A stretch of 64,000 bases of DNA from Acetobacter orleanensis (GTDB lineage: Bacteria; Pseudomonadota; Alphaproteobacteria; Acetobacterales; Acetobacteraceae), in contig NZ_LHZV01000065.1 of the NCBI RefSeq assembly GCF_001581005.1, forward strand, positions 124,001 to 188,000, written 5' to 3'. The notes below the pieces were generated by a model that was not told where the DNA came from, did not search any database, and saw only the letters and a list, made by a program, of their open reading frames with translations. Of this stretch, positions 1 to 14,920 are shown piece after piece (position 1 is the stretch's first letter; every line of letters starts with the position of its first letter). A program made the translations under genes and the position numbers.

Positions 1-1557
1 GATGGCGTTACCACGCGCCTCCACCTTGGCGTTGCTGACTGCCCAGGCCATGATGGGCTGCCCGCAATGCAGCAGGCTTCCATCGGCCAGTTTTCTTTCT
101 GCGGTCTTGATAGCGCCAGACAGCGTCCAGCCCTGTGCCACGCCGACCACTCGGGGGCCATCAATGCCGCGCTCTGCCAGAGCATCGACAATTAATCCCA
201 CGCCCTGCGGATCAAGGCCAACCATGGCAAGCTTTCCGGACTTGTTTACGCCGCCCAACGTGTCGGACAGGTGCTCAACATCCATTCCAGGCTCAGTTAC
301 GATTACCAGATCACCCTGTTTGCCAAAATCTTCCAGCTGCGAGGCTTCGCGCTTACGCAGTTGCAAAACACCTTCCATCACCCAGCTTTTTGACCACTGG
401 AGCCACTCAGACGTGACGCTATCCCGACCAAGGATCGTCAGAGAGAGCAGATCATCCAGACCCCCGCCATCAATTCCGGCCACGATCACGTCTGACCGGG
501 TGATGATTTCATCCACCGTCAGGTCTGGGTCAGCCTGCTGCGCCCAGTAATCCGCGCCAGCCCAGCGGTCATTCCTGAGCGCCAGGCCGATCTCGACATT
601 CAGATGCTGGGAGGCCCAGCGGTTCAGTTCCTCAAGACTATCGGCTTTCGCCTTTGCATAATCCTGCTTTAGACGCTCGACCGTGATGGAACGACCCGCG
701 TTCGGCAGGACCATGTGCCAGCAAGCCGGGTCTTCCCACGCAGCAGGCTCACCCGGCAAAGTTGACGGCTTTTGGATATCTTCCGGAAACTCATAAATGA
801 TTGGAAGCGTATGACCCTGCACAAGGCCATCCCGAATAGAGCGGGCCTGCATCAGGTCAGCCTTAAAGACACCACGAGGTGGTTTTTCGCTTTGCGTGGT
901 GATGGTCAGCAGGAATGCCTCCGGCTGGCTGATCATGCCACCACGTATCTGCCCCATCACCCGGCTGGCATCTGATTTCTCGGCAATAACGTGCTCTTCA
1001 TCCACCAGAATACCAGATGGCTTCACGCCCGTCATGACGTCGGGGGAGAACGTCTTAATCTGGAGCGTTGCCTTTGTCGGCAGGTAGGTGATTGTCTTTT
1101 TATGTTCCTGAATGTGGAAGCGTCGCCTTAGCCCCTTATCAAGATCAATCATCCCCGCCGACTGGTCGAAAGCGAGCTGAGCGATCTCCTTTGTCGGAGC
1201 GACATCCAAAAATTCTGCACGTGGCCTATCGTTAATCAGCACTGACGTGAGCATCAACCCTGCACCAAGGGTGGTCTTTGCGTTTTTTTTCGGCACAAGA
1301 AGGAACAACTCACGGATCATGCGTTGCCGCGTTTCTGGGTCGAAAGATCCATGCAACGCAAAAACGATTTCACGAAACCATTCGCCCGCAGCATCCGCCA
1401 GTAGCGGAGTGCCAACTACGTCAGGAATACGCAGACGATCAAAAATTTTGACCGCTAGCTCACCGCGCTCAACATTTAAATCCGGCAAGGATGGCATGAG
1501 GGAGCGGCCTGACCTGATACGCTCACGCCAGTCTGGGCAACTCAGATCCCATGTCAT
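1..1557 (-). CDS. Phage terminase large subunit (3' part missing)
   Basis: Packages phage DNA: ATPase motor plus nuclease. I read 519 codons without a stop from the ATG at 1557 to the window edge. A Walker A-like segment PKKNAKT lies near residues 89-95 and a Walker B strand ILVDEEH near 183-189, as in HK97-type TerL. A later aspartate-containing strand, VIVAGIDGGG, fits the start of the RNase H-like nuclease domain. The start overlaps the stop of the preceding small-terminase gene by one base, indicating translational coupling. The C-terminus lies outside the window, so completeness cannot be judged. Confidence 0.9.
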   Translation of the reverse strand, partial: MTWDLSCPDWRERIRSGRSLMPSLPDLNVERGELAVKIFDRLRIPDVVGTPLLADAAGEWFREIVFALHGSFDPETRQRMIRELFLLVPKKNAKTTLGAGLMLTSVLINDRPRAEFLDVAPTKEIAQLAFDQSAGMIDLDKGLRRRFHIQEHKKTITYLPTKATLQIKTFSPDVMTGVKPSGILVDEEHVIAEKSDASRVMGQIRGGMISQPEAFLLTITTQSEKPPRGVFKADLMQARSIRDGLVQGHTLPIIYEFPEDIQKPSTLPGEPAAWEDPACWHMVLPNAGRSITVERLKQDYAKAKADSLEELNRWASQHLNVEIGLALRNDRWAGADYWAQQADPDLTVDEIITRSDVIVAGIDGGGLDDLLSLTILGRDSVTSEWLQWSKSWVMEGVLQLRKREASQLEDFGKQGDLVIVTEPGMDVEHLSDTLGGVNKSGKLAMVGLDPQGVGLIVDALAERGIDGPRVVGVAQGWTLSGAIKTAERKLADGSLLHCGQPIMAWAVSNAKVEARGNAI

Positions 1558-1871
1558 CAGTGCATTCCGTTTTTAGTTCCCATGGCTTTCTCCTGAGCTT
1601 TTGGGGAGAGGACGGTATCCCATTCATCCGCCATACTGGTCTGTCCGTCGCCATCTTCAACTTTCGGCGCGAGCCTTGAGTGCATGAACGGAGCAGCTTC
1701 TTTTGCTGCCGACCATCGCGCGCTGAACGGGGCCTCAGGATCTCTCAAAACAGCCCTGAAAAATTCGAGAGGCGTCAGATGCGTGAGATCCCCAATTTCC
1801 GGGCCAGCATAATCGCCTTGCTCTTCCTTTTTTGGGCGTCCAGCACCATCACGCCGGCCACCACGAGCCAT
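1557..1871 (-). CDS. Phage terminase small subunit-like protein
   Basis: A 104-residue protein with the basic N-terminus MARGGRRDGAGRPKKE, a signature common in phage small terminases and their DNA-recognition arms. It sits directly before the large subunit with a one-base overlap. A strong ribosome site (AAGGAG, about six bases ahead) supports the ATG at 1871. The helical middle region (LTPLEFFRAVLRDPEAP) is also typical of such proteins. The role is inferred mainly from position and the N-terminal motif. Confidence 0.75.
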   Translation of the reverse strand: MARGGRRDGAGRPKKEEQGDYAGPEIGDLTHLTPLEFFRAVLRDPEAPFSARWSAAKEAAPFMHSRLAPKVEDGDGQTSMADEWDTVLSPKAQEKAMGTKNGMH

Positions 1872-2037
1872 AATTTATCTCCTTTGATTATTTGATTGTT
1901 TTCAAACAGCAGAAAAAATCTGCGCGTGAGACTGGCGCGGTTGGGGTGCCTTAACCCGCCAGACTTTTGCCTACCCCCCACCGTTGGCCGGGTCAGGCCA
2001 CGTAATTTGCTAGGAAACTATGAAAAAACCGCAGAAA

Positions 2038-2367
2038 TCAGCCGTTTTTCCCATATCTTTCCGCCATCCTCTGCGCCCTGACGCGGGCTGTTTTCTTGGT
2101 GTGGCAGGAACCGCACAGCAATCGGATGTTGGATGGCTCAAGCTTAGCGCCACCATCCTTGATCTCATGGACGTGGTCGCCAAAGAGACGGACACCCTCG
2201 CGTCCACACTCCTGGCATCGGCAGCCACGGACTGCCGTAATCTGACGCACCAGAGCACGCCATGCCGGAGACAGATAAAAGGGATCAGCCTTTTTCGGCG
2301 GCGGACGGGCTATGCGGGTGTCAATTGTCGCAACGCTGGGAGCGATGCATTTAAGGCGTGGTGCCAT
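2038..2367 (-). CDS. HNH endonuclease, phage packaging type
   Basis: A 109-residue HNH nuclease. Zinc-binding CxxC pairs are at residues 51/54 and 85/88. The catalytic motif GDHVHEI is near 63-69, the asparagine near 80 and the final histidine at 89. HNH proteins next to terminase genes stimulate terminase cleavage in HK97-like phages, and that is the likely role here. I chose the ATG at 2367 over an upstream in-frame ATG at 2415 because GGAG lies at good spacing before it, and the upstream start falls inside a transcription terminator. Confidence 0.85.
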   Translation of the reverse strand: MAPRLKCIAPSVATIDTRIARPPPKKADPFYLSPAWRALVRQITAVRGCRCQECGREGVRLFGDHVHEIKDGGAKLEPSNIRLLCGSCHTKKTARVRAQRMAERYGKNG

Positions 2368-2385
2368 TGCAGCTCTCCGGGCAAT

Positions 2386-2419
2386 AAAAAAGGCCGCGCA
2401 CCCCGTAGGCTGCACGACC
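2386..2419 (-). terminator. Rho-independent terminator between replication and packaging genes
   Basis: On the minus strand, GGTCGTGCA pairs with TGCGCGGCC (nine pairs, two of them G-U) around a ten-base loop, followed by six T. It ends transcripts coming from the early genes just before the HNH-terminase block. This implies a separate late promoter or antitermination. Confidence 0.65.
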
Positions 2420-2477
2420 CCTAATCATGACGCTCAAAACACTGCATTTTCCGGAAAAAGGGAAGAGAAAAATGCAG

Positions 2478-2936
2478 TCAGGCGTATTTTTTTTTCGTGA
2501 TGCTGGCTAAGCCCCTGCGAAACAGGCTTTTTGCTGTCTTGTCAGAGCGCCCAATTCGCTTACCGATCTTTTCCCAGCTAAGCCGGTGCCGATGCGTGAT
2601 AGGGTGGATCATCATCCAGAGCAGCACAACACGCCGCTGATCCGCCGCACTAATGGCCTGCACCCAACCCATTGCCTCATCCATACGGCTGATTTTTGCG
2701 GCACTCGGTACAGGCGGGCGGAGATCTTCCTCCGCTACTAGGGTCAGGAGGTCTTCCAGGTCCATCAGCGTGTCACGCCATGATGAGACCCGGCTGGACG
2801 GCCTGAGGCCATGTGAGGGCAAGCATGCCAGCGTGATACCTGCCTCAAACAGACGCTGCTCCACATTCTGAGCCATTTCATCCCCACTCATAGGCTTGTT
2901 GGCCATGATTTCTGCTGGCGTTCCGATGGTTCCCAT
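2478..2936 (-). CDS. Phage protein with C-terminal helix-turn-helix (DUF6362-like)
   Basis: About 152 residues if it starts at 2936; in-frame ATGs at 2906 and 2891 are alternatives. The C-terminal half (AISAADQRRVVLLWMMIHP, then a WEKIGKRIGRSDKTAKSLFRRGL segment) looks like a sigma-region-4-type helix-turn-helix. It resembles small alphaproteobacterial phage proteins filed as DUF6362, an assignment made from memory of the family. It lies immediately beyond the repeat array, and its 5' end contains two of the repeat units. A role in binding those repeats is possible but unproven. Confidence 0.6.
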   Translation of the reverse strand: MGTIGTPAEIMANKPMSGDEMAQNVEQRLFEAGITLACLPSHGLRPSSRVSSWRDTLMDLEDLLTLVAEEDLRPPVPSAAKISRMDEAMGWVQAISAADQRRVVLLWMMIHPITHRHRLSWEKIGKRIGRSDKTAKSLFRRGLASITKKKYA

Positions 2937-3161
2937 CTGGTTCCCTTCCAGTTCCCTTTATTATATATATTTATCAATAGATTAGTAAGAAAGGGAACTA
3001 AGGAACCAAGGGAACCGCAATTTCTCACACAGAGAGAATGGAGCACGAGGTATAGCTACTCCGTGAGAGCGCGGATATAGGTTCCCTTTCTGGATTTTGG
3101 TTCCCTTTAGGAAAATACAGCAACTAAAGGGAACTTGTTACGTTCCCATTGAGTTCCCTAG
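2928..3161. repeat. Iteron-like array of GGTTCCCTTT repeats; candidate phage replication origin
   Basis: At least ten copies of GGTTCCCTTT or close variants occur in both orientations. Forward copies start at 2928, 2939, 2950, 3080, 3099, 3141 and 3152. Inverse copies (AAAGGGAACC) start at 2990, 3007 and 3126, with a shorter one at 3000. Several neighbours are 11 bp apart, one helical turn. An AT-rich stretch (about 2957-2990) separates the groups like a DNA unwinding element. The array follows the replication ATPase and primase genes. Origin function is inferred; a multi-operator control region is the alternative. Confidence 0.7.
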
Positions 3162-3183
3162 TGCCCTTTATGCTGAAAAAACG

Positions 3184-5079
3184 TTAGTCTCCGTCGAACG
3201 AAAGACCCATTTCACAGCAACGCACCCAGAAGCAGCCCTTGTGCTTCATTTTGCCGATGCTCACCGCGCATTCTCTGCCTCTGCTATCCTTAGGCGGGGG
3301 GCGATAGCTTTCCATGCGGGCGAACTCATACATATACTTTTGCCCGGCAAAGACAGTCTCTTTAAACAGCGCGGCCAACATAGCGTTGCGCGGCCATATC
3401 CACAAGCCGTCACCATCACTGGCACGCAGGGCTGGCTGGCCGCTTCGCCCCGGCGGCTCATTGGCGCGGACCACACGGATACCGTAACTTGCCAGCACAC
3501 CGGCAACATTATCGCGAGAGTAATTGATATCCTGATACTCAGGTGAATCCTGCCCTCGTGGGGTATCCGGCTCAAGCATCCGGCTGATGAGCACGTTAAG
3601 GGGCTGGCGGTCTGTAGACCGGTTCATCTGGACCTTTTGTGACAGCAGGAAATCAATCATCTGCTGCGTGCCGCTTTGCGTCATGACCTGATCAACACTA
3701 CGGGTATAACCAATTACACCTTTCACAGCATCATCAGCCTCAGCTTCTGTTGGCACATGGTCAAACACGAGTGTCCACCAACCGGCTAGCAGTGATCCCA
3801 TCTGGTCCATTTCACGCGGCTGACAGCCTGCCTTGCCTACGGCGGCACGGAGGATAATACGTGCTTCGCGGTAACGTTCCCACCCCGCAATAGCACGGCC
3901 CCAGAGTGCCGGGCCGAGATCCCTGCACCACGCAGACAGGTCACGGTGTTCCGCAGTATGGTCAGCTCCCTGTTTGGCGGCATCCATTTCAATAATCGTG
4001 AAACGCCCCAGATGCTGCGCCTCCATATCCGGTGGCCGAATTGAGGCCATAATAATGCTGCCAGCCACGGAGATTTTGCGGGCGATACCGTCAGACCCGC
4101 CACGCGCGCCTTTGGTGCCTTCACCGCCGGTTGCGGACAGAACGAGATCCAACAGGGCACGGGCAGCACGCTGGTCAACACGATCAGACGCCTCATCCAC
4201 CAGCATCGGGATGGCGCGGCCATCCACCATCTGCTCAATCCCGGCTTTAGAAGCATCATTGGTTGCAAATTTGAGAGGGATGGCGCTTTTCAGCACCTCC
4301 AGCAGAGACGATTTACCACACCCCGCACCCCCGGTCAGGAATCCGGCAGGCCGCCAGGGAATAGCAGCGCCATAATAGGCACAGGCCAGCATGCCCATGA
4401 CGATAACGTCACTCCCTGGCACACGGAAATTCCAAAGATCACGGATGTTCTGCTGCAAGGCGCGGGCCTCAGCGCAGGAGCAGGGCTTTTCCGGGCGCGG
4501 CTCAGGTGCCGCCGCCGCCCATATCTGGTTGCCAATGCGCGTGCCTGGGAGCTCCAGCCGTGCGCCAACCAGAACACGATCCCCACAATGCACAATCGGC
4601 ATACCTGACGGATCAGGCCACACACCGGGACGGCGGATCTGGATATGGTCTCCATACAGACCAGACCGGAAGCATTCACGTTGCAAAAATTCGGCAACAT
4701 TATTGATTTTAAAATCAACAACCACGTCACGAGTAGTTTCCTCACCATCCTGTCCCTTTTCCTTAACCTTGGTTGTTTTGGGGAATTTCTCTTTCATCCA
4801 GAGGATGTTGCCACCGAACAGCGCGACCAGATCTGCACGGCGCGTCATCTGAGATGCCTTGAGCACCCGGAGCTGACCGACACGATCCAGAAAATAGAAT
4901 GAGCCATCCAGATGCCCAATGACAGAAATGGGACATTCCTCATCCGGTTTTGGCGCTTCCGGCGGACCACCGCCGCCATTTTTACTATCGCGGCCGCCAT
5001 CAATAACCTGAAACTGGCGATCTGCCGCATGGACCGCAGACCGGACGGCTGAAAGGCCGCTTTCACCGGATTGCATCAT
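3184..5079 (-). CDS. Phage replication P-loop ATPase (helicase-like)
   Basis: A 631-residue protein starting at the ATG at 5079, preceded by TAAGGA; upstream in-frame ATGs lie inside the primase gene. A Walker A motif, GGAGCGKSS, is at about residues 250-258, and a Walker B strand, IPMLVDEAS, at about 290-298. The N-terminal 40 residues are low-complexity and glycine-rich. The start overlaps the primase gene by 17 bases, so the two are coupled and probably act together in phage DNA replication. Helicase activity is inferred from context; the exact family was not identified. Confidence 0.7.
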   Translation of the reverse strand: MMQSGESGLSAVRSAVHAADRQFQVIDGGRDSKNGGGGPPEAPKPDEECPISVIGHLDGSFYFLDRVGQLRVLKASQMTRRADLVALFGGNILWMKEKFPKTTKVKEKGQDGEETTRDVVVDFKINNVAEFLQRECFRSGLYGDHIQIRRPGVWPDPSGMPIVHCGDRVLVGARLELPGTRIGNQIWAAAAPEPRPEKPCSCAEARALQQNIRDLWNFRVPGSDVIVMGMLACAYYGAAIPWRPAGFLTGGAGCGKSSLLEVLKSAIPLKFATNDASKAGIEQMVDGRAIPMLVDEASDRVDQRAARALLDLVLSATGGEGTKGARGGSDGIARKISVAGSIIMASIRPPDMEAQHLGRFTIIEMDAAKQGADHTAEHRDLSAWCRDLGPALWGRAIAGWERYREARIILRAAVGKAGCQPREMDQMGSLLAGWWTLVFDHVPTEAEADDAVKGVIGYTRSVDQVMTQSGTQQMIDFLLSQKVQMNRSTDRQPLNVLISRMLEPDTPRGQDSPEYQDINYSRDNVAGVLASYGIRVVRANEPPGRSGQPALRASDGDGLWIWPRNAMLAALFKETVFAGQKYMYEFARMESYRPPPKDSRGRECAVSIGKMKHKGCFWVRCCEMGLSFDGD

Positions 5080-6094
5080 TAAAATCCTTACCTTTAGGCG
5101 GCTTTGCCACGCGCACATCACGTCCGGCCTGCATGTGCAGATCTATTGCTTTCTGCAGGCCCTTTTTTGCTGCGGGGGCATCATCACGGTCTGCAAGAAT
5201 CAGCACATTTCTGGCTGCATCCGGCAGGCGGACAGCACCGAGATTTGAAAGGGAAACGGCTGCGAGGATACGCAGCTCCGGACAGGCCAGCGCGACGGAA
5301 AGGCATGTTTCAATCCCCTCACCAATCGCCACTGTTTCTGATCCGGTTATTTTATTGAGCGGTGTCCCGGCTACACCTTTGCGCAACCGGATGCAGCCAC
5401 CAGAAAATCGGCCACGGACCTTTTTGGGGCATTCAAGATGCGCCTTGGTCCATTGACCACCATGCTGGCCGAGCCAAGTCTGATGCAGGGCGATAATGCG
5501 CCCATCCAGATCCGTGATGGCAGCCAGCATGGCAGGCAATGGAGCTTCTATTTCCGAGCAGTAATGCTCTGGTGCAAACCGGAGCGCGCCGGGCACATGG
5601 TTCAGGCTTGTCAGATCAATGCCACGAGCAAGCAGATAGGCCATTACAGGCGTACCCATGATATTGTCCTGAGCACCCAGCCATACTTTGCGGGCGCTGG
5701 CGCGGTTAGCCTGCTCTTTTTCCGTCTGCTCCTTTTCTGCCTGTTCAGCCCGTTTCTTGATTTCAGCCCGATGGACGGTGACATCCGTATCTGCGGTCAG
5801 GCCCAGATAAGAGCAAGCCCAGCGGTATGCATCAGGCAGGCTACTGCCCGTCATGCAGGCGGCGACCAGATCTAAAGCATCACCGCCGGTATTTTCCGAA
5901 AAATCCTTCCAGATACCTGCTTTTGCGCCATGCAGATGGACAGACAAGCGGGTTCCGGGTTCACCGGCCACACTTCCGGCAGTCCATTCAGCACCCGCAC
6001 GGCGTCCGCCGGGCAATAGTTCCCGCGCAAGCGGCTCCATGCTTTGCGCTAGCATGGCGGATATTTCTTTATATGACAGCCGCTGTTCATTCAC
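5063..6094 (-). CDS. Toprim-domain DNA primase-like protein
   Basis: A 343-residue protein. The Toprim core is visible near the C-terminus: GEG with the catalytic glutamate near residue 259, and ADRDD with the metal-binding aspartates near 302-304. The N-terminal part (SVHLHGAKAGIWKDF, GDALDLVA) resembles other primases of this type. A highly charged Glu/Lys coiled segment spans about 110-135. I chose a GTG start at 6094 because GGAG lies eight bases ahead and it overlaps the methyltransferase stop by eight bases. The longer open frame upstream belongs to that gene read in another frame. Confidence 0.8.
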   Translation of the reverse strand: MNEQRLSYKEISAMLAQSMEPLARELLPGGRRAGAEWTAGSVAGEPGTRLSVHLHGAKAGIWKDFSENTGGDALDLVAACMTGSSLPDAYRWACSYLGLTADTDVTVHRAEIKKRAEQAEKEQTEKEQANRASARKVWLGAQDNIMGTPVMAYLLARGIDLTSLNHVPGALRFAPEHYCSEIEAPLPAMLAAITDLDGRIIALHQTWLGQHGGQWTKAHLECPKKVRGRFSGGCIRLRKGVAGTPLNKITGSETVAIGEGIETCLSVALACPELRILAAVSLSNLGAVRLPDAARNVLILADRDDAPAAKKGLQKAIDLHMQAGRDVRVAKPPKGKDFNDAIR

Positions 6095-6668
6095 AGTTGG
6101 CACTCCGCACCAACGGCAGCAGGCCAGTCTGCCAGACTGGCGCGGTATGGCCGGACTGCCAGACAAACCATGCATAGCATTCCTGTCTGCCCGGTTTTTT
6201 GCCGGAGCTTTTCCCTGCCGGATGCATGATGACACGCTCACTAGATACCCACTGACGCGCCAGAGGGCGCCGGGCGAGAAACTGGCGCCGGCTGACACTT
6301 TCCACCCGCCGAAATGGTAGCAGCAGGCAGACATGCGATGCGCCGCTTTCAAACGACACATCCACCAATTCTTCCCAACAGTTATAGGGCGGATTTGAGA
6401 CCACGCAGTCTGGCCGCCAGAAACGCAGGGTGTGACGGAAATCTCCAACAACCAAAGCTTGCCGCCAGCGGTCCACAATATCAGCACCGTTGGCGCGGAT
6501 ACCGTGTTCACGCATAACCAAGGGAATATTGCCTTCACCACAGCACGGGTCCATCACCCAGCCGGAAAACTGCTCAACCTGAAGGAGCGCCTGCACGGGC
6601 GCGGCTTCTTCCTGATAGAAATCATTTTCCACGCGGTCATAACGGGATGTTTTTTTAAACCGGCTCAT
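6087..6668 (-). CDS. Phage N6-adenine DNA methyltransferase
   Basis: A 193-residue methyltransferase. The SAM-binding motif DPCCGEG is at residues 40-46 and the catalytic NPPY motif at 92-95, typical of adenine-N6 enzymes. The ATG at 6668 is supported by AGGTGG seven bases upstream, and it overlaps the preceding gene by 14 bases. No restriction endonuclease is adjacent. It is therefore probably an orphan enzyme that protects phage DNA or modulates expression rather than part of a restriction system. No target-recognition domain is evident. Confidence 0.8.
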   Translation of the reverse strand: MSRFKKTSRYDRVENDFYQEEAAPVQALLQVEQFSGWVMDPCCGEGNIPLVMREHGIRANGADIVDRWRQALVVGDFRHTLRFWRPDCVVSNPPYNCWEELVDVSFESGASHVCLLLPFRRVESVSRRQFLARRPLARQWVSSERVIMHPAGKSSGKKPGRQECYAWFVWQSGHTAPVWQTGLLPLVRSANCE

Positions 6669-7089
6669 GACATGCCACCTGTTTAAAATAAAACCGCCGC
6701 ACAGGAGGGCCAAAGCCGAGAATAGACAGCACCGGAGCAAAGCCGCGCAGGCCGTTCTGAATATTGCTCAGGTGGGGTTCATGGATGCCAAAAATCTGCG
6801 CCGCAATGCGCTGGGATTTATGCTCCCGAATAAAATTATTCAGTTTTTCTTGCACATGCTGCGCTGTGACCAGATTTTTAGGATCTGCCGACAGAGGATA
6901 GCGCAGCACCTGCACCAATCCAAGCGCTGCCACAACATCATGGCTGAACCCGCGTAGGTTTTGCGTATCCCGCACAGCCTGCACCGGAATGTTGTGCTGG
7001 CGGGCAAAAGCCGCCGCACCGCCAGAAACACGAATTGCCCGGTTCATGATCCCGCAAAAACGGGTGCAGTCCATTAGCCGTTCAGACAT
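6655..7089 (-). CDS. Phage DNA-binding protein, helix-turn-helix type
   Basis: A 144-residue protein of unknown function. Two stretches look like helix-turn-helix units: one near residues 23-40 (GGAAAFARQHNIPVQAVRD) and one near 94-113 (RIAAQIFGIHEPHLSNI). It overlaps its upstream neighbour by eight bases and the methyltransferase downstream by 14, so it belongs to the early leftward operon. A regulatory role is plausible, but no specific family was recognised. Confidence 0.55.
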   Translation of the reverse strand: MSERLMDCTRFCGIMNRAIRVSGGAAAFARQHNIPVQAVRDTQNLRGFSHDVVAALGLVQVLRYPLSADPKNLVTAQHVQEKLNNFIREHKSQRIAAQIFGIHEPHLSNIQNGLRGFAPVLSILGFGPPVRRFYFKQVACHEPV

Positions 7090-7297
7090 TTTTCATCCGA
7101 TCCCGATTATAGCGCCATGCCAGAGACATACCGCTGGAGACGCGCACCTGATCTTTCAGGTCCGGCCGGATTGCCGCGGACTGGCGAAGGTCACGATCAT
7201 TCCGGCTGCGTGATGCGACAATATGCCGCCCAGGCAGAGCAGGCTGGCCAAAGCTCCGCACACAGACGGAAAGTGGATTTTTAGAAAAATTATTCAT
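7082..7297 (-). CDS. Small phage protein, unknown function
   Basis: A 71-residue, strongly basic protein (many Arg) with no recognisable domain. It is supported by position: it overlaps the gene before it by four bases (ATGA) and the gene after it by eight, as throughout this operon. Nucleic-acid binding would suit its charge, but that is only a guess. Confidence 0.5.
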   Translation of the reverse strand: MNNFSKNPLSVCVRSFGQPALPGRHIVASRSRNDRDLRQSAAIRPDLKDQVRVSSGMSLAWRYNRDRMKNV

Positions 7298-7467
7298 ATT
7301 TTCTTGCTTTTCTGGCTATCAAGCCGGAGCTGCTTGCGGCGGGTATAGATAGAGCGCTCAGAAACGCCGAGCCTGCGGGCCTGCCGCCTGACACATAGCC
7401 CGCACCGCTCAAAATGCCGTAGCTTTGTATCCATAGCGTGTGTCCATTCAATTGCTGCACGTACCAT
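7294..7467 (-). CDS. Very small helix-turn-helix phage protein (57 aa)
   Basis: I read a 57-residue frame from ATG at 7467 to TGA at 7294, beginning MVRAAIEWTHAM. The segment RRQARRLGVSERSIYTRRK has the spacing of a helix-turn-helix. The start overlaps the upstream stop by one base, and its stop overlaps the next ATG by four bases. This fills what would otherwise be the only gap in the leftward operon, which is the main reason to call it. Confidence 0.6.
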   Translation of the reverse strand: MVRAAIEWTHAMDTKLRHFERCGLCVRRQARRLGVSERSIYTRRKQLRLDSQKSKKI

Positions 7468-7946
7468 CAGGCCGCACCTGACTGGCCAGTGCCAACGATA
7501 TGCGGTTTATTATCCGCAATGATTTTGTGCAGAGCATGTTCCAGACGGTCCATTGCCAGCCGGGACGGGTGCAGGTGCTCCAGAATGGCCCGTGCCTCTG
7601 CAACATCAACCTGCCCATCTTCCAGACTTTCAATGCCTTCCTGCAAAACCTCGCTGGTAAACTTGGAGAATTTTGCGAGTTCCTGCGGGATATGCCCAGT
7701 CCCGGAGAACTTGACCGGAACAAGCCGGAATCCTTCAGCCACAGCCATGGCGGCAAGAATTAGCGGTTCCTGCGCGCTGATATCCAGATCCACCGCGACG
7801 TCAGCCGGGACACATTGCAGACTGTTGCGGTTGCCGTAGTCGCTCAACTGAGAGCGGCCAACGCGGCATACACGCTCCGCCGCATCTATCCCGCCAATGA
7901 CTTTGAGTGCATTTTTAGTGGCAGTTTTGATAGCTGCGACGGACAT
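7467..7946 (-). CDS. Phage early protein, CII-like regulatory candidate
   Basis: A 159-residue protein. The N-terminal 45 residues (KNALKVIGGIDAAERVC, SQLSDYGN) resemble the DNA-binding end of small phage regulators, and the rest is helical without a known motif. It lies two genes after the Cro-like protein, a position where temperate phages often carry a CII-type activator. Start and stop both overlap neighbours by one base. The functional label is tentative. Confidence 0.5.
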   Translation of the reverse strand: MSVAAIKTATKNALKVIGGIDAAERVCRVGRSQLSDYGNRNSLQCVPADVAVDLDISAQEPLILAAMAVAEGFRLVPVKFSGTGHIPQELAKFSKFTSEVLQEGIESLEDGQVDVAEARAILEHLHPSRLAMDRLEHALHKIIADNKPHIVGTGQSGAA

Positions 7947-8629
7947 CAGGCAACACTCCGCCAGCGCTCTAACCCGCGCCAGAGTGCCGACATTGAAACC
8001 TCATGCTCAGCATTCAGCGCACCGTTTAAACGCGGCAAGGCATAGACTGCCGTATTTTCAGCTTTTTCTGGCTCAGGATTGGGGTTTTTGACTTTATCGT
8101 ATTCCGCACAGATACGGCGGGACTTACTGAGATAGCTCTTTTTCAGAGTGCGGAGCTTTATGCCAAACAGAGTGGCAATGTCCTGCACCGGCAAACCCTG
8201 CAAAGAAAGAGCCGCAATGGCTGTGATATTCTGCCCAAGAATACTGGCCGGATTTGCCAGCATTTTCATGCCAAGCCGCCGCACTAGAGGCACATCAACA
8301 GAACTGGCTAGAGCCGCAAGGCTTTTAGCGCTACCCGTTTCAACCTGATAGGCCGTAACCAGCTCACGAATTTTGGCAATACAGACACCACTGCTCAGCG
8401 TGCCGTATTTTACACCCATAGCCATGGAGCAATGCCGGATTGTATGCCCGGCAATAACCAGACGGGCAGCGCCGGACACACGCTGCTGCATAGGCTCTGA
8501 CAAGCCCCGCAATACCCGGCTGGCAACATGGCTAAAAAGAGCCACATCGACTTCAGCACAGTTACTCCGGACCATATCCGGCTGACAGGCTGAGGCCGCA
8601 GGCGTACTGGTGGCGTTATGAGTTTTCAT
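7946..8629 (-). CDS. Phage protein with C-terminal helix-turn-helix, unknown function
   Basis: A 227-residue protein. A helix-turn-helix-like segment (GLPVQDIATLFGIKLRTLKK) is near residues 144-163, and another possible one lies near 65-80. Its ATG overlaps the stop of the Cro-like gene by four bases, so it is translated directly after it. It could be a second early regulator or an origin-binding protein. No family was recognised. Confidence 0.5.
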   Translation of the reverse strand: MKTHNATSTPAASACQPDMVRSNCAEVDVALFSHVASRVLRGLSEPMQQRVSGAARLVIAGHTIRHCSMAMGVKYGTLSSGVCIAKIRELVTAYQVETGSAKSLAALASSVDVPLVRRLGMKMLANPASILGQNITAIAALSLQGLPVQDIATLFGIKLRTLKKSYLSKSRRICAEYDKVKNPNPEPEKAENTAVYALPRLNGALNAEHEVSMSALWRGLERWRSVA

Positions 8630-8841
8630 GCTACCTCACTATTTGGATCAGGCGCCTCCCTAGCTTCGCCCAAAGCGCGCACCAGCCTAGTCAGCACGCT
8701 GACAGTTGGCGAAGTCTCACCGCTCTTCCATCTCTGGAACGTGCTACGGGCAACACCAGCACGCCTACAGACGTCACCGATTGATTGCCCTTGACGAACA
8801 GCCTCACATTCGATGTCTGCCGGGGTTGGGATAAGCATCAT
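8626..8841 (-). CDS. Cro-like XRE family repressor
   Basis: A 71-residue protein. Almost all of it is one XRE helix-turn-helix: QGQSIGDVCRRAGVARSTFQ followed by RWKSGETSPTVSVLTRLVRAL. It is the first gene of the leftward early operon and is divergent from the CI-type repressor, the standard Cro position. The operator repeats (8844-8925) lie immediately upstream. The start is the ATG at 8841 or 8838 (adjacent ATGs). Confidence 0.8.
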   Translation of the reverse strand: MMLIPTPADIECEAVRQGQSIGDVCRRAGVARSTFQRWKSGETSPTVSVLTRLVRALGEAREAPDPNSEVA

Positions 8842-8843
8842 GG

Positions 8844-8925
8844 ATGCAAATATGCGCAATAATGCAAACTATGCAAGCGCAAAAATGCGCCGGGACACGC
8901 TTTCTACTATATGCAAATATGCGCA
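8844..8925. promoter_or_regulatory. Immunity-region operators between cro and cI
   Basis: An exact 15-bp repeat, ATGCAAATATGCGCA, occurs at 8844-8858 and 8911-8925. Between them lie further ATGCAA units and an imperfect palindrome, AAGCGCAAAAATGCGC, at 8875-8890. The region separates the divergent Cro-like and CI-like genes, so these are very probably the lysis-lysogeny operators. The same 16-mer recurs inverted at 10406-10421. Confidence 0.75.
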
Positions 8926-8926
8926 T

Positions 8927-9631
8927 ATGGAAAAAGACGCACGCGCACTCCGAAAAGAGCAGCAGAAATATATAGATGAGATTAGGGGCCGGACAGGAAA
9001 ATCCTATTCGGCTATTGCGCGTGCTATCGGATCAGCACCAAGCACAATTGTGCGCTTCATGGATGACAATGCATCGTCACACGCCTTGAGCGCTATGACG
9101 ATGGAAAAGCTTAAGATCATATTTGACCTACCAAAATTCCAGCCCCCCAATATTGAAAGCCTTGTCCATTCCGAGCCCGTCACGTTAGCAGGTTTTATTC
9201 AGGCAGGAGTATGGCAGGATACCGGATTGTTCAGCCCTCAGGCCCCCCTTGAGTATGTCATGGTTGCACCAGATGAGCGTTACCCTGGTCTGCGGCGATG
9301 GGCCTTCACTGTGCGTGGCGATTCCATGGATAAAATTTATCCTGACGGCACAATTGTCGTTGCTGTTTCATTTTTTGATTTATGCCGTGCCCCTAAGACA
9401 GGGGATAAAGTTATTGCCATTAGAAAAGAGCATGGACTAGAAGAGGCAACACTGAAAGAAATCGAAATACTTGACGATGGGAGCGTTGCCCTATGGCCTC
9501 GCAGTACAAATCCAAGATTCTCTCAGGCCATTATAATTAATAATAAATTTGATGATGACCTGCCAGACGATGGGTGTCATTCAGATTACCGTATTGAAGG
9601 GCTTATTATCCAGAGCATAAGAAGAGAGTAA
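8927..9631 (+). CDS. CI/LexA-type phage repressor with S24 autocleavage domain
   Basis: A 234-residue protein from the ATG at 8927. The N-terminal helix-turn-helix (SYSAIARAIGSAPSTIVRFM) is followed by a LexA-like peptidase domain. That domain has an Ala-Gly cleavage candidate near 88-89 or 93-94, nucleophile Ser133 in GDSM and general base Lys177 in EATLK. I chose this start because upstream in-frame codons run through the operator repeats. The mRNA may be leaderless or nearly so, since no clear ribosome site precedes it. Likely maintains lysogeny and is inactivated during the SOS response. Confidence 0.85.
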   Translation: MEKDARALRKEQQKYIDEIRGRTGKSYSAIARAIGSAPSTIVRFMDDNASSHALSAMTMEKLKIIFDLPKFQPPNIESLVHSEPVTLAGFIQAGVWQDTGLFSPQAPLEYVMVAPDERYPGLRRWAFTVRGDSMDKIYPDGTIVVAVSFFDLCRAPKTGDKVIAIRKEHGLEEATLKEIEILDDGSVALWPRSTNPRFSQAIIINNKFDDDLPDDGCHSDYRIEGLIIQSIRRE

Positions 9632-9634
9632 AAT

Positions 9635-10381
9635 ATGGAATATGTATATATTAATAGAGACTCCGATAAAGAGAGAAAGAATAAATTTCTAACAAAGAAT
9701 AATATTGATTTTGATATAAAGAGATTTAAAGCAATAGATAAATCAGTAATAAGATTGGATAATCTTATCAGTAAAGGGATTGTTGAAGATGGCGCTTATT
9801 ATAGCATTTCTGCTATAGGAAACGCACTTTCACATATTTCTATATGGAATAAATCAATTAGAGATGGTAAGATTTATACCATATTTGAAGATGATGCAGT
9901 TATTTGCAAAAATTTTAAAGAAGAAAGTGATAAAATATTATCTAATTTATTTAATAAATTTGATATTATAGTTTGGGGATATAATTTTGATTCAACATTA
10001 ACGATAGACTTTCTTGAAAATATTGCTCCATGTGTTGTTAATTTTGATGAAATTAATTTAAAAAGAAATATAGATAAATTTTTTGATCGAGATATTCAGT
10101 CATATCCGTATAAACTACTTCAGTCATTTGGGTTATGTGGCTATACAATAACTCCAGAAGGAGCAAAAAAACTAATAGATTTTTGTCTTCCAATAAAAAA
10201 AGAATCATATTTTCAAATTGGCCTAAATAGAAATATTAAAAATGAAGGCTTAGACCATATCATGTCTTACAATTATAGAAATATAAGGGCTTTTGCTTCA
10301 TTTCCCCCTCTTTGTGTGTCAGAAAATGATAAAATAGCATCAACTATTAATTCTGATACGACATACAGACGCATCATATAG
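9635..10381 (+). CDS. Family 25 glycosyltransferase (lysogenic conversion candidate)
   Basis: A 248-residue protein resembling LPS/LOS glycosyltransferases of family GT25. It has an N-terminal YVYINRDSDKERK strand-helix, the SAIGNALSHISIWNKSI motif (about 58-75) and the metal-binding FEDDAV at 84-89. It starts three bases after the repressor stop, so it is probably expressed from the prophage in lysogens. Its base composition is strikingly AT-rich compared with every neighbour, indicating recent acquisition from a low-G+C donor. Likely role: modify cell-surface glycan, for example to exclude other phages. Acceptor and sugar are unknown. Confidence 0.8.
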   Translation: MEYVYINRDSDKERKNKFLTKNNIDFDIKRFKAIDKSVIRLDNLISKGIVEDGAYYSISAIGNALSHISIWNKSIRDGKIYTIFEDDAVICKNFKEESDKILSNLFNKFDIIVWGYNFDSTLTIDFLENIAPCVVNFDEINLKRNIDKFFDRDIQSYPYKLLQSFGLCGYTITPEGAKKLIDFCLPIKKESYFQIGLNRNIKNEGLDHIMSYNYRNIRAFASFPPLCVSENDKIASTINSDTTYRRII

Positions 10382-10400
10382 TAAGATCTGATACAATATA

Positions 10401-10449
10401 AAAATGCGCATTTTTGCGCTTGCTTATTTTGCATTTTTGCGCATATTCT
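10401..10449 (+). promoter_or_regulatory. Repressor-controlled promoter of the rightward operon
   Basis: The inverse of the immunity-region 16-mer (AAGCGCAAAAATGCGC) is at 10406-10421, and a second half-site group, TGCGCATATT, at 10438-10447. A plausible promoter overlaps them: TTGCTT at 10420-10425 and TATTCT at 10444-10449, spaced 18 bp. Binding of the CI-type repressor here would silence the operon that follows. Confidence 0.65.
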
Positions 10450-10482
10450 TGCCCCATCGCCACCAACGCGATGGAGGAACAC

Positions 10483-11010
10483 ATGCAGGCACAGACACCA
10501 CAGCAGACCGCCGAGGCAGGCCCCAGTGAGCTGGCCGCCCAGCAGGATGCTGACCTTTACCGCCATATCCTTTTCATCTTGGTTCCCAGCAGCAGCAGTG
10601 CATGGGTGCCAACGCTAGATACCTCATGCGACTGGATGGAGCACGCCCGCCGGGATGCGCCAGTAGGGGTTGATCCAGTATCTCTGGCAAAAACCTGCTT
10701 TGACGAAAGCTTTATGGCGCTGACGGGTTTAAAGCCCGTTACGGATGGAGAGCCACGGGATATCTGGACAAAGTTTGTCCATCGGCAGATCAGCCGGAAA
10801 TGCCGGGAGCTGAACCCGGAGAAATTCCGCAACAAGCCGCGTAAAATTGTGCAGATAGCCACGCATTATGACCCAGACATGATGAACTACCGGCTGCACG
10901 CCTTATGCAGTGACGGCACAATTTATGCACTAAGCCCTGAGCCGCACCAGCAGTGGCTGATTGAGCTGCCTATTCCGCAGGGCAATGTCCAGCAAGTAAC
11001 TGCACAGTAA
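10483..11010 (+). CDS. Phage protein, unknown function
   Basis: A 175-residue protein from the ATG at 10483, chosen because GGAGG sits six bases ahead. No domain was recognised. It has a conserved-looking centre with Trp and Arg/Lys-rich stretches (KFVHRQISRKCRELNPEKF) and a C-terminal part likely to form beta strands (YRLHALCSDGTIYALSPEP). It is the first gene after the repressor-controlled promoter, so it should be expressed strongly on induction. Confidence 0.5.
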   Translation: MQAQTPQQTAEAGPSELAAQQDADLYRHILFILVPSSSSAWVPTLDTSCDWMEHARRDAPVGVDPVSLAKTCFDESFMALTGLKPVTDGEPRDIWTKFVHRQISRKCRELNPEKFRNKPRKIVQIATHYDPDMMNYRLHALCSDGTIYALSPEPHQQWLIELPIPQGNVQQVTAQ

Positions 11011-11028
11011 AAGAAAAGAACAGAGCAG

Positions 11029-11262
11029 ATGCAAAACGTAAATCAGTTTGAGCGGCATCGCGCTGCATTGGAGCAGTGCGTCCATAATACTGTGCATGAT
11101 GCCGAAGCCCGGCAGGCCATGCTGAGCTACATTGCTGCAATGGGCGGCGCCATGCACGCAGAGGAACGCATTGCAGATGCCGCCATGCGGACAACCCACC
11201 ACGCCCAGCGCAGAGGCCTGCTGAGCCGGTTTGTGCTGGATGTGCGGGAGTGTGCGGCGTGA
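11029..11262 (+). CDS. Small phage protein, unknown function
   Basis: A 77-residue, mostly helical protein with many His, Ala and Arg (for example RHRAALEQCVHNTVHDAEAR). No motif was recognised. Support comes from its place in the operon: 18 bases after the previous gene, with its stop overlapping a GTG that probably starts the next gene. Confidence 0.45.
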   Translation: MQNVNQFERHRAALEQCVHNTVHDAEARQAMLSYIAAMGGAMHAEERIADAAMRTTHHAQRRGLLSRFVLDVRECAA

Positions 11263-11660
11263 GCCAGAAAGAAAACGATCTGAAAAAGCTTGAGCAATTC
11301 TATCACTCAGCCATCAAGCAGATTCAGGACGCTAAGGACGGCCATGAAATCAGCATTATCCTCTCTATTATCATGGGATATCCTGACAATGGAGACATTG
11401 GAACTGATACCAAAACTTATGGCCGCCGTGAGGAAATATTGGTTGGTTCACTGGATTCCGCCATCGAAGCGATAGCGGAATATCCTGATGAGGCCAGAAG
11501 CTTTATTGCGCTCCGCGCTCAGGCAATGATTGGCGAAAGCACCCAGCGCCTGAGAGCAGGGAATAAAACACCACCTACGACCGAAGAACTGGACGCCCTG
11601 ATTGAACAGGCCAAGCTAAACCATAGGGTGGCAACATGCCCAAACATAAAATTACACTAA
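11259..11660 (+). CDS. Phage protein, unknown function
   Basis: About 133 residues if translation starts at the GTG at 11259, which overlaps the preceding stop as GTGA; an ATG three codons earlier (11250) is the alternative. Predicted mostly helical: KKLEQFYHSAIKQIQDAKDG, then AIEAIAEYPDEARSFIALRA. No domain was recognised. Its end overlaps the next gene by 25 bases. Confidence 0.5.
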   Translation: MSQKENDLKKLEQFYHSAIKQIQDAKDGHEISIILSIIMGYPDNGDIGTDTKTYGRREEILVGSLDSAIEAIAEYPDEARSFIALRAQAMIGESTQRLRAGNKTPPTTEELDALIEQAKLNHRVATCPNIKLH

Positions 11661-11980
11661 AGCCGCAGCATAGCGGCGGGTATCTGGCAGTTTTAACAGA
11701 TGAGCATGGCCAGTTTGTGGAATTTGGCAAATGCCAGAGTGAGCAGCGCGACGGTAAGCGGCATATCACCGGCTCTAGCACACGCGGGCTGATGGGATGG
11801 GTGTTTGATCTGTGGTCCGTCGGCGGTGGCCTGTTCCACGCCACAGCCACGGACAACCGTGACTGGCTCATTGTTTTTAACGACTGCGAGACCGTGATGG
11901 ATGATGGCCAGCAGACTATTGAGGGCTGGAGCAATGACGTCCGGACGCTGGAGCCAGCGGCAGAGCAGGTGGCGGCATGA
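11636..11980 (+). CDS. Small phage protein, unknown function, beta-rich
   Basis: A 114-residue protein with alternating hydrophobic strands (GGYLAVLTDEHGQFVEFGKC, DNRDWLIVFNDC) that suggest a compact beta or alpha/beta fold. No family was recognised. Its stop overlaps the next start by four bases. Small beta-rich proteins in this phage position are often inhibitors of host functions, but nothing here proves that. Confidence 0.5.
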   Translation: MPKHKITLKPQHSGGYLAVLTDEHGQFVEFGKCQSEQRDGKRHITGSSTRGLMGWVFDLWSVGGGLFHATATDNRDWLIVFNDCETVMDDGQQTIEGWSNDVRTLEPAAEQVAA

Positions 11981-12549
11981 AAAAACATCAAGCGCTACCG
12001 TTTGTAAAGGCAGTCCCTGATACTGGAGGAATATTTACGCTTGATTTTGGTGATGGCGCATTTATCCCCAATGTGAATCTGGCTACTTGCTTTATATCAA
12101 TATCAACATCTGACTTTTGTTTTAGGAACTTCGCTCATGCAATGATGCCGTATGAAGACCGGGAAGTGTCTAGATATCCAACGAAGGAGACTATTCAAGT
12201 ATCGCGTATAGGTGAGCATCAATATGCACTGAGATATGATAAAGTTTTTTGGGGGATTAGAGACGTCGTTCGGGGTTCTAGTTTTTTCTTTGAGACAGAA
12301 GAAAAATGTAAAAGGTTCCGTGATGAAAAACAGTACGACGGAGAAGTTATTCCATATTTTTGCGTAAACCCCTCTTTTCCGCTTTTTTATGGTGAAGTCT
12401 TTGATTTTTGTATTGGCGCCTGTGAAGCGCAAATCCCTAATGCGAATGAGGCGGACAGTCGCTCAGAGCGGAATGGTTATCTGGCTGCGATAAAAGACTG
12501 TATTGATGCAATAAAATTAGCCCAAAAATCTGGAGCTCAGAGAGAATGA
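11977..12549 (+). CDS. Phage protein, unknown function
   Basis: A 190-residue protein, rich in aromatics (Phe, Tyr), with strand-like segments such as GGIFTLDFGDGAFIPNVNLA and a helical C-terminus (YLAAIKDCIDAIKLAQKS). The DNA is noticeably more AT-rich than the packaging genes. No motif was recognised. Four-base overlaps on both sides tie it to the operon. Confidence 0.5.
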   Translation: MKKHQALPFVKAVPDTGGIFTLDFGDGAFIPNVNLATCFISISTSDFCFRNFAHAMMPYEDREVSRYPTKETIQVSRIGEHQYALRYDKVFWGIRDVVRGSSFFFETEEKCKRFRDEKQYDGEVIPYFCVNPSFPLFYGEVFDFCIGACEAQIPNANEADSRSERNGYLAAIKDCIDAIKLAQKSGAQRE

Positions 12550-13620: not shown

Positions 13621-13868
13621 GCAAAGCAGATGGCCAGACAGGAAAGCAGCGGCCAACAATGCCTGATTGGCCACGCATTATGCGGCGAGAAAAGGCCGCA
13701 CAATATCTGGATATTTCCCCAAGCCTTTTGGATAGAGAGGTTGCATCCGGACGCCTGCCTAAGCCCGTGCAGCTTACCCCTACAGTACGTGGATGGGTAA
13801 GGGACGACCTAGACGCGATGATTGATGATCTTAAAAACCCAATGGACCCCGCAAGCGACTGGATCTGA
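13617..13868 (+). CDS. AlpA/excisionase-like DNA-binding protein
   Basis: An 83-residue protein with a MerR/AlpA-type winged helix-turn-helix: MRREKAAQYLDISPSLLDRE, then SGRLPKPVQLTPTVRGW. It lies directly before the integrase, whose ATG overlaps its stop by one base. Proteins of this type act as excisionases or as activators of integrase genes. Which of the two applies here cannot be told from sequence. Confidence 0.75.
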   Translation: MSKADGQTGKQRPTMPDWPRIMRREKAAQYLDISPSLLDREVASGRLPKPVQLTPTVRGWVRDDLDAMIDDLKNPMDPASDWI

Positions 13869-14920
13869 TGACCAAGCTTAATCTGCTATACGTGCAGAAA
13901 ATTAGAAAAAATAAAAGGTTATATTATTATTTCAGAAAACCCGGATGTAGCCGGAGACAGCTTCCAGGATATCCCGGCAGTCGGGAGTTTATGGAGGCGT
14001 ACCAACAGGCGCAGTCTGGAGATAAAGAGCAGGTCGGAGAGTCCAAAGCGATACCCGGCAGCATGCGGCTGCTAGTAGCGACATGGCGTATGTCACATCA
14101 GTTCAGGTCTTTACGTGCCCAGTCACAAACAACCTATGCGCACCTGCTGGATAAATTTGTTGAATTACACGGTGATAAGTCTGTCCGCACTGCACAGCCC
14201 AAGCATATCCGTGCGATACTGGAAGCAATGAGCAATACACCAGCACAGGCTAATGCGCTGCGGAATGTTTTACGCCAGCTTTTTCAGTATGCTTTTGAGA
14301 ATGACTGGAGACCAGACAATCCGGTTCGGGACATTAAAAAGCTCAAATACAAAAAGAGCCCGATTCCTACATGGTCGGAAGAGGATATAGAGAAATTCGA
14401 GCAATGCTGGCCAATCGGCACACGGGCACGGCTTGCACTGACACTGCTGCTCTATACAGGCCAGCGCCGCAGCGATGTGATTCGCATGGGAGTGGCGAAT
14501 GTGAAGGATGGAGCGATATCTGTCGCGCAGATCAAAACGGATGTGCGCTTACTGATCCCGCTGCATCCAGATCTGCATGCAGTAATCAGGCTATTGCCAG
14601 AAAATACAGCCGCATTTCTGATGACCCAGCAAGGCAGGGCATTTGCTTCTGGGAACGCATTTTATAACTGGTTTAAGGAGTGTGCCGTTAAGGCAGGCAT
14701 ACCCAGCACACTTGGCCCGCATGGACTGCGCAAAGCAGCGGCGCGACGGATGGCGGAGGCTGGCTGCACACCACATCAGATTGCATCAATCACAGGCCAT
14801 CAGACACTTGCAGAGGTTGAGAGATACACCAAAGCCGTGCAGCAAAGACTGGTAGCAGAGCAGGCCGTCAGCATGCTTGGAAAACCTGAAAAAAGGCTAA
14901 AAGCAAAGAAGCCTGTGTAA
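13868..14920 (+). CDS. Tyrosine-family phage integrase
   Basis: A 350-residue site-specific recombinase. The SAM-like core-binding domain covers about 65-160. The catalytic domain follows with Arg200 (TGQRRSD), Lys223, HGLR (His285, Arg288), His311 in TGHQT and the nucleophile Tyr320 in VERYTKA. All key residues are present, so it should be active. It is the last gene of the repressor-controlled operon and points at the 3' end of tRNA-Ala, the probable integration target. Co-expression with the excisionase-like protein suits prophage excision on induction. Confidence 0.95.
   Translation: MTKLNLLYVQKIRKNKRLYYYFRKPGCSRRQLPGYPGSREFMEAYQQAQSGDKEQVGESKAIPGSMRLLVATWRMSHQFRSLRAQSQTTYAHLLDKFVELHGDKSVRTAQPKHIRAILEAMSNTPAQANALRNVLRQLFQYAFENDWRPDNPVRDIKKLKYKKSPIPTWSEEDIEKFEQCWPIGTRARLALTLLLYTGQRRSDVIRMGVANVKDGAISVAQIKTDVRLLIPLHPDLHAVIRLLPENTAAFLMTQQGRAFASGNAFYNWFKECAVKAGIPSTLGPHGLRKAAARRMAEAGCTPHQIASITGHQTLAEVERYTKAVQQRLVAEQAVSMLGKPEKRLKAKKPV

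Follow-up and report, generated by a model that had tools for sequence, protein, structure and literature searches.

A repeat array directly behind an MCM-like helicase gene as the probable replication origin of a temperate tailed phage in Acetobacter orleanensis

What is the function of a crowd of short repeats that lies between replication and packaging genes in Acetobacter orleanensis, and which protein reads it? In the window, the 64-kb stretch of contig NZ_LHZV01000065.1 analysed here, ten exact copies of GTTCCC/GGGAAC lie within positions 2929-3158, as GTTCCC on the plus strand at 2929, 2940, 2951, 3081, 3100, 3142 and 3153 and as GGGAAC at 2993, 3010 and 3129. They are 10 of the 37 copies in the whole 64 kb and form the densest 260-bp cluster among all 6-mers of the window. 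When the 420 bp behind the helicase gene were dinucleotide-shuffled 200 times, the commonest 6-mer never exceeded 5 copies (mean 3.0), against the 10 observed. The first-pass annotation, made from the letters alone, had reported a dense repeat in both orientations with partly exact 11-bp steps, and all of this holds (steps at 2929/2940/2951 and 3142/3153). Its repeat unit stands as far as the common core GTTCCC, but the full decamer GGTTCCCTTT occurs only twice. Degenerate sites were added by eye at 2920 (GTTCCG), 3002 (GGAACC) and 3161 (GTGCCC). The sites fall into four clusters: A (3129-3168; GTTCCC at 3142 and 3153, the degenerate GTGCCC and the opposite site 3129), B (3081-3105; GTTCCC at 3081 and 3100), C (2993-3015; GGGAAC at 2993 and 3010 and the degenerate GGAACC, inverted relative to B) and D (2929-2956; GTTCCC at 2929, 2940 and 2951 in exact 11-bp steps, with the degenerate GTTCCG at 2920, inverted relative to C). 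The gap between C and D is an AT-rich element (2957-2992), which is conserved in alignment and is a probable melting site. The AT-rich core of the first-pass annotation thus exists as the stretch 2957-2991, but it lies between two of the four clusters and is not central. There is no second cluster of the word, as we call the repeat core, elsewhere in the window, where GTTCCC reaches at most 2 copies per 300 bp, and no Rfam family reached its gathering score in positions 1-12000. A GC-skew switch, which had been proposed as a check, is not seen, since the skew over the prophage has no extreme at the array and its minimum is at position 9183 of the window. Free-standing triple sites were found in one of the 49 genomes of the genus, namely the window's own.

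The gene order on the minus strand is Toprim primase, helicase, array, DUF6362 helix-turn-helix protein, HNH protein, small terminase subunit (a candidate, from a weak phrog match) and large terminase subunit. The helicase gene (3184-5079, minus strand) encodes 631 amino acids and is the candidate initiator gene; its product matches phrog_21086, a family carrying the label function unknown, over the full length, and gave no Pfam match above the cut-off. The primase (DUF7146 and Toprim_3; 5063-6055, minus strand), whose gene overlaps the helicase start, is likely the partner of the helicase at the fork. On the other side of the array, the longest reading of the 2478-2936 frame begins within the array, and its ATGGGAACC is one of the sites; the DUF6362 gene more likely starts at 2906 (2478-2906, minus strand), in which case the array would be non-coding. 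To the left of the array, contiguous DNA encodes a portal, a head protease, a major head protein, a head-tail adaptor and a minor tail protein, and an integrase gene is present at 13868-14920, so that the element is a whole temperate phage. Phage-inducible chromosomal islands (PICIs) have no portal, head and tail genes of their own, whereas such genes and a large terminase subunit gene are present here. Beside the repressor region, the gene at 9635-10381 matches glycosyltransferase family 25 (Pfam PF01755), and its product is possibly a lysogenic-conversion protein modifying surface sugars.

An AlphaFold2 model of the helicase (mean pLDDT 81, 28 sequences) shows a predicted AAA+ fold of the MCM-like type, shared with Cch and SaPI5. 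The closest solved fold is the SCCmec Cch helicase (5dgk_B; Z 16.5, rmsd 5.0, 334 residues), followed by MCM proteins and then by the SaPI5 primase-helicase (7ola_B; Z 13.0, rmsd 7.2, 315 residues), in a comparison that spans the helicase residues up to about 470. The family profile set against solved chains gave P-loop-type and other weak matches only among the 60 of 73 chains listed, with no Cch or SaPI Rep among them. Behind this body, the C-terminal domain (residues 466-631; 3187-3684, minus strand) is modelled as helices and strands, with three short strands at residues 606-620, and this secondary structure would allow winged-helix units. When the domain was folded alone, without an alignment, the pLDDT was 41. 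Within it, the tail (residues 592-620; 3220-3306, minus strand), which contains the three short modelled strands, is our proposed reader of the word, by analogy to a difference between two co-resident prophages described below.

Relatives of the helicase turned up at each taxonomic level searched: genus (3 of 49 genomes), family (21 of 299), order (18 of 200) and class (8 of 385). These sets overlap, and the window's own genome is counted in each. Two further loci, both of Acetobacter, came from the genome_contigs set, and two overlapping searches of viral_contigs gave 17 loci and the best 80 of 126. An EM motif search proved too permissive and was replaced by exact k-mers. In a blind search for the densest 6-mer, the cluster centre lay between -60 and 450 bp from the helicase stop in 116 of 136 loci, repeated copies included; all 136 have 350 bp or more of sequence downstream. 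Once near-copies had been removed, 93 non-redundant relatives remained, and 70 of them had a significant array behind the helicase gene, with 6-13 copies each of a word that was commoner than in all 200 shuffles. The remaining 23, in which no array above chance was found, are mostly distant members, and 12 of them have proteins of more than 800 amino acids. The 70 arrays have 40 distinct top 6-mers, for example GGGAAC, GGGCAC, GGTAAC, GTAGCC, GTAACC, TGTGAC, GTGAAC, GAGACA, CTGTGA and GGGACA. Thus conservation of the repeat in related phages, which the first-pass annotation had named as a check, fails for the word, which changes beyond close relatives, but is borne out for the array and its layout.

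While the words differ, the order of A, B, a spacer, C, an AT-rich gap and a D inverted to C is kept. Across the relatives, cluster B has 2-3 sites 8-9 bp apart and cluster D typically has steps of 11-12 bp, and the distance from the last B site to the first C site is 49-106 bp in the 67 loci with assignable clusters, the opposite orientation of B and C being part of how the spacer is defined. Counted independently of any cluster definition, 378 of 451 spacings between neighbours of the same orientation are 8-12 bp, and orientation switches number 207, against a shuffled mean of 309 and a minimum of 269. Of the three gaps, the one between C and D has the highest AT content in 55 of 63 loci, with a mean of 73% against 37% for the loci. 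In ten aligned arrays of the Acetobacter type, many sites share alignment columns despite the words GGGAAC, GGAACC, GGTAAC, GGGCAC and GGCACC.

Which protein follows the word can be read from natural swaps between close relatives. The helicase of locus L034 is 93-97% identical to those of L028, L029 and L031 in the body, 48% in the C-terminal domain and only 33% in the tail, and the word is GGTAAC in L034 and GGAACC in the other three. At the DNA level, L034 and L031 mostly share 80-95% identity across the primase gene and the greater part of the helicase gene, and 80-97% across the downstream genes; in between, from about -450 to +247 with the helicase stop as zero, identity drops to 41-57%. 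In other words, about 150 C-terminal helicase residues and the array differ between L034 and its relatives, while the flanks are similar. A narrower exchange is seen in L043 and L049, two prophages in one genome, whose helicases are near-identical save for the last 33 or so residues (body 99%, residues 466-583 100%, tail 590-621 64% identity). Their words are TGTAACC and TGTGACC, respectively, so that one base is changed in nearly every iteron, and L049 retains one TGTAACC. Counted in blocks of 100 columns with the stop as zero, all 34 blocks between -3503 and -203 reach 94% DNA identity or more in this pair, and the four blocks between -103 and about +292 reach 57-76%. Past +292 the identity is 83-100%, with only three blocks below 90%, over downstream genes for an HNH protein, a repressor-like protein and the small and large terminase subunits; the two prophages differ further out. 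Two other loci, L004 and L063, share the L043 tail, and both also have GTAACC. A third, weaker pair consists of L002, L003 and L062 against L042, with bodies 80-81% and tails 76% identical and the words GTAGCCA and AGTGAA. In genome G341, the co-resident prophages L140 and L141 differ in the helicase tail and the array and are otherwise near-identical over the roughly 9 kb compared. The idea that co-resident prophages must differ in their word was not upheld: those of G341 and G523 differ, and others share it. Prophages can reside together with no need for different words, since L015 and L022 in G225 share a word, as do L035 and L036 in one IMG genome.

Among the 31 compared pairs with a body identity of at least 0.85, the 6 with a tail identity of at most 0.64 have a word distance of at least 0.27, and the other 25, with a tail identity of at least 0.78, have a word distance of at most 0.05; the 31 pairs are not independent and rest on two independent swaps. 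Below a body identity of 0.85 the tail rule loosens, as the tails of L023/L024 and L103/L107 have diverged with similar words, and L002/L042 differ in word with tails 76% identical. Mapping of the reader over the family (64 of 78 distinct-tail entries, omitting eight named loci and six proteins of at least 760 amino acids) gave weak partial rank correlations with word distance in all windows of the protein, the highest being 0.24 (residues 285-299), 0.24 (475-489) and 0.20 (585-599). Alignment columns with z below -3, counted with no control for ancestry, number 26 of 587 and are scattered over the protein, a scatter that may reflect shared ancestry. GTTAC words seemed to go along with a proline immediately ahead of the tail strand; noticed post hoc and with exceptions (L014, L015, L016, L021, L045, L097 and L131), this is only a lead. 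Taken by themselves, the natural swaps point to the helicase C-terminus as the reader of the word.

The neighbouring helix-turn-helix protein had been the candidate binder in the first-pass annotation, and with it the array could be a late-gene operator: lying ahead of the DUF6362 gene and the packaging operon, it would be bound by the DUF6362 protein, which would control the transcription of both in the manner of RinA-type activators. The position of the array just upstream of the DUF6362 gene and the helical phasing of its sites would suit an operator. A promoter scan of 2400-3700 gave only one weak sigma-70-like match, outside the array and not above the number in shuffled DNA, and weighs neither for nor against this reading. 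The word, however, does not track the adjacent regulator in either direction: L034 and L031 have near-identical DUF6362 proteins and different words, while L029 and L030 have a common word and different helix-turn-helix segments. The array also keeps its position where other genes follow, such as an HNH-type gene directly after the array in L004 and L043 and the genes of an Arsenophonus plasmid discussed below. We therefore drop the neighbour as binder and consider the operator very improbable. A packaging site (pac or cos) for the small terminase subunit would fit the nearness of the array to the HNH and terminase genes; it is rejected on the comparison of L043 and L049, whose HNH and terminase regions are near-identical while their words differ, and the Arsenophonus plasmid has an array with no terminase among its recognised genes, which together make this reading extremely improbable.

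It could also be argued that another replication protein reads the word and that the helicase C-terminus differs merely through the same recombination tract. Since the array adjoins the part of the gene encoding the helicase C-terminus, one recombination event would alter both, and the weak family-wide mapping is in line with such a view. Against it, the compared DNA of L043 and L049 is near-identical on both sides of the tract, over 3.5 kb in one direction and more than 5 kb in the other. Moreover, according to the available part of the source, the related SaPI Rep recognises, through its C-terminal domain, an iteron origin directly downstream of the rep gene, and the C-terminal domain of Cch2 binds direct repeats just downstream of the cch2 gene (PMC7581432). 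We consider a different reader improbable. The helicase, rather than its helix-turn-helix neighbour, is most likely the initiator.

Among known systems, the SaPI/PICI type (pri-rep-ori) resembles the window's system in having, as far as the cited texts are available, an initiator helicase, an origin directly 3' of its gene and iterons that flank an AT-rich region (PMC6092414, PMC7581432); here, likewise, the array directly follows the helicase gene, and the AT-rich region has cluster C on one side and cluster D on the other. The differences are that the window holds a whole phage and not a satellite, that there are four clusters, that the Toprim primase is encoded by a separate gene and that 40 top words occur. 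The best structural match is Cch/Cch2 of SCCmec (AAGTG iterons), in which the repeats also lie just 3' of the gene; in the material available on Cch2, the putative origin has three iterons, compared with 6-13 copies here. The alpha protein of phage P4 is described, in the part of the paper at hand, as a helicase that binds origin repeats via a winged-helix domain (PMC4234260), and binding of origin repeats by the helicase is proposed here too; primase and helicase are one protein in P4 and separate genes here, and the window differs from P4 in having no second word cluster elsewhere. In the PLE of Vibrio cholerae, the available text describes the RepA binding domain and the origin as exchanged together as a module, and an origin-directed nuclease that targets the origin (PMC8263062). 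Binding domain and origin change together in PLE as they do here, whereas PLE has another initiator family with an N-terminal RepA_N binder and, by the same partial account, two replicon types in place of 40 top words. The window's system would thus work like SaPI, Cch and PLE and would differ as a whole-phage replicon, in its four-cluster layout and in the number of words. In origins of the lambda O type, the iterons lie within the initiator gene and are read by the N-terminal part of the protein. Here the array is 3' of the gene and the changes are in the helicase C-terminus. No earlier description of such a system was found in literature titles and abstracts, which is weak evidence of absence because subscription papers were mostly outside that scope.

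The association of helicase and array extends to far relatives. A distant relative of the helicase (22% identity over part of the protein in one search and 19% in another) is encoded on linear plasmids of 8.2-8.3 kb in Arsenophonus nasoniae. One of these, of 8.2 kb (NZ_CP123558.1), has 7 ORFs of at least 70 amino acids; its annotated genes include those for a telomere resolvase, a YhgA-like protein and a helix-turn-helix protein, and no other replication gene was recognised, two small unannotated ORFs lying outside that search. Behind the helicase gene (region 1262-3460) there is an ATTACA array of 13 copies in the four-cluster layout. The count is barely above the shuffle maximum of 12, as the DNA is very AT-rich, and the layout therefore weighs more than the copy number. 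From its sequence, the plasmid looks like a minimal natural replicon of the helicase-and-array kind. Synechococcus phage MinM1 has 11 copies of CTCACA (shuffle maximum 5) in the four-cluster layout behind another far helicase relative. No array above chance was found in the plasmid relatives of Phaeobacter, Leisingera and Atlantibacter. Three circular Phaeobacter/Leisingera plasmids of about 40 kb (L386, L387 and L389) carry a helicase relative with no clear array, and the first two carry annotated terminase or HNH genes; all three look like phage-plasmids.

When viral contigs were searched with two DNA patterns alone, at least 65 loci, the window's own included, had 8 or more words within 300 bp, and the matches also contain plain tandem repeats. 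An ORF of at least 548 amino acids ends at the array in 14 of these loci; the other 51 listed have no such ORF, and some of them are plain tandem repeats. Ten of the 14 were tested, with L165 (of the window's own helicase family), L230 (which looks antisense), L235 (a near copy of L191) and L287 omitted, and each of the ten encodes a primase domain, a helicase-type domain or both, from families other than that of the window (VapE-like, AAA_25, Prim-Pol or Toprim); L297 has Toprim, and its AAA matches are only weak. Such arrays thus appear to be a wider hallmark of phage replication loci. In L150, L164, L185, L191, L199, L201, L210, L249, L286 and L297, GGGAAC or TGTGAC sites are densely arrayed at the 3' end of primase-helicase genes of these other families. 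Only 5 of the 85 listed loci with at least 7 words, the window's own among them, had a tblastn match to the helicase family of the window.

We conclude that origin function of the array, as proposed in the first-pass annotation, is very probable; it has strong comparative support in the 70 of 93 relatives, the layout, the AT-rich element, the joint change of word and C-terminus and the minimal plasmid; the helix-turn-helix binder attached to it is not supported. In our reading, for which our confidence is high and which rests on comparison of sequences, the array serves a temperate tailed phage as its replication origin, the adjacent MCM-like helicase is the initiator of this origin, and the C-terminal domain of the helicase reads the iterons. 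Replication would start at the array as follows. The C-terminal domain would bind the ten GGGAAC iterons, with the last 30-40 or so residues, a strand-rich tail, presumably deciding which word is read. The helicase, probably as two hexamers at the inverted clusters, would then open the adjacent 35-bp AT-rich element, load itself onto the single strands and work with the neighbouring Toprim primase. A further-reaching view is tentative, and we are inclined to doubt it: a hypervariable lock and key, in which the short tail would read the variable bases of the word by a simple residue-to-base code and move among phages with the origin as a cassette of about 400-700 bp, the diversity being maintained by conflict over origins with satellites, origin-directed nucleases and co-resident prophages.

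The reading of array and helicase as origin and initiator proposes a function for phrog_21086, a phage protein family of unknown function, and a sequence rule for locating origins in many alphaproteobacterial phages. The 70 helicase-array pairs, above all L043 and L049, allow a direct test of how the specificity of an initiator and that of about a dozen sites shift in concert. The pairs offer an unusually clear natural experiment on initiator-iteron specificity and suggest a source of small orthogonal replicons.
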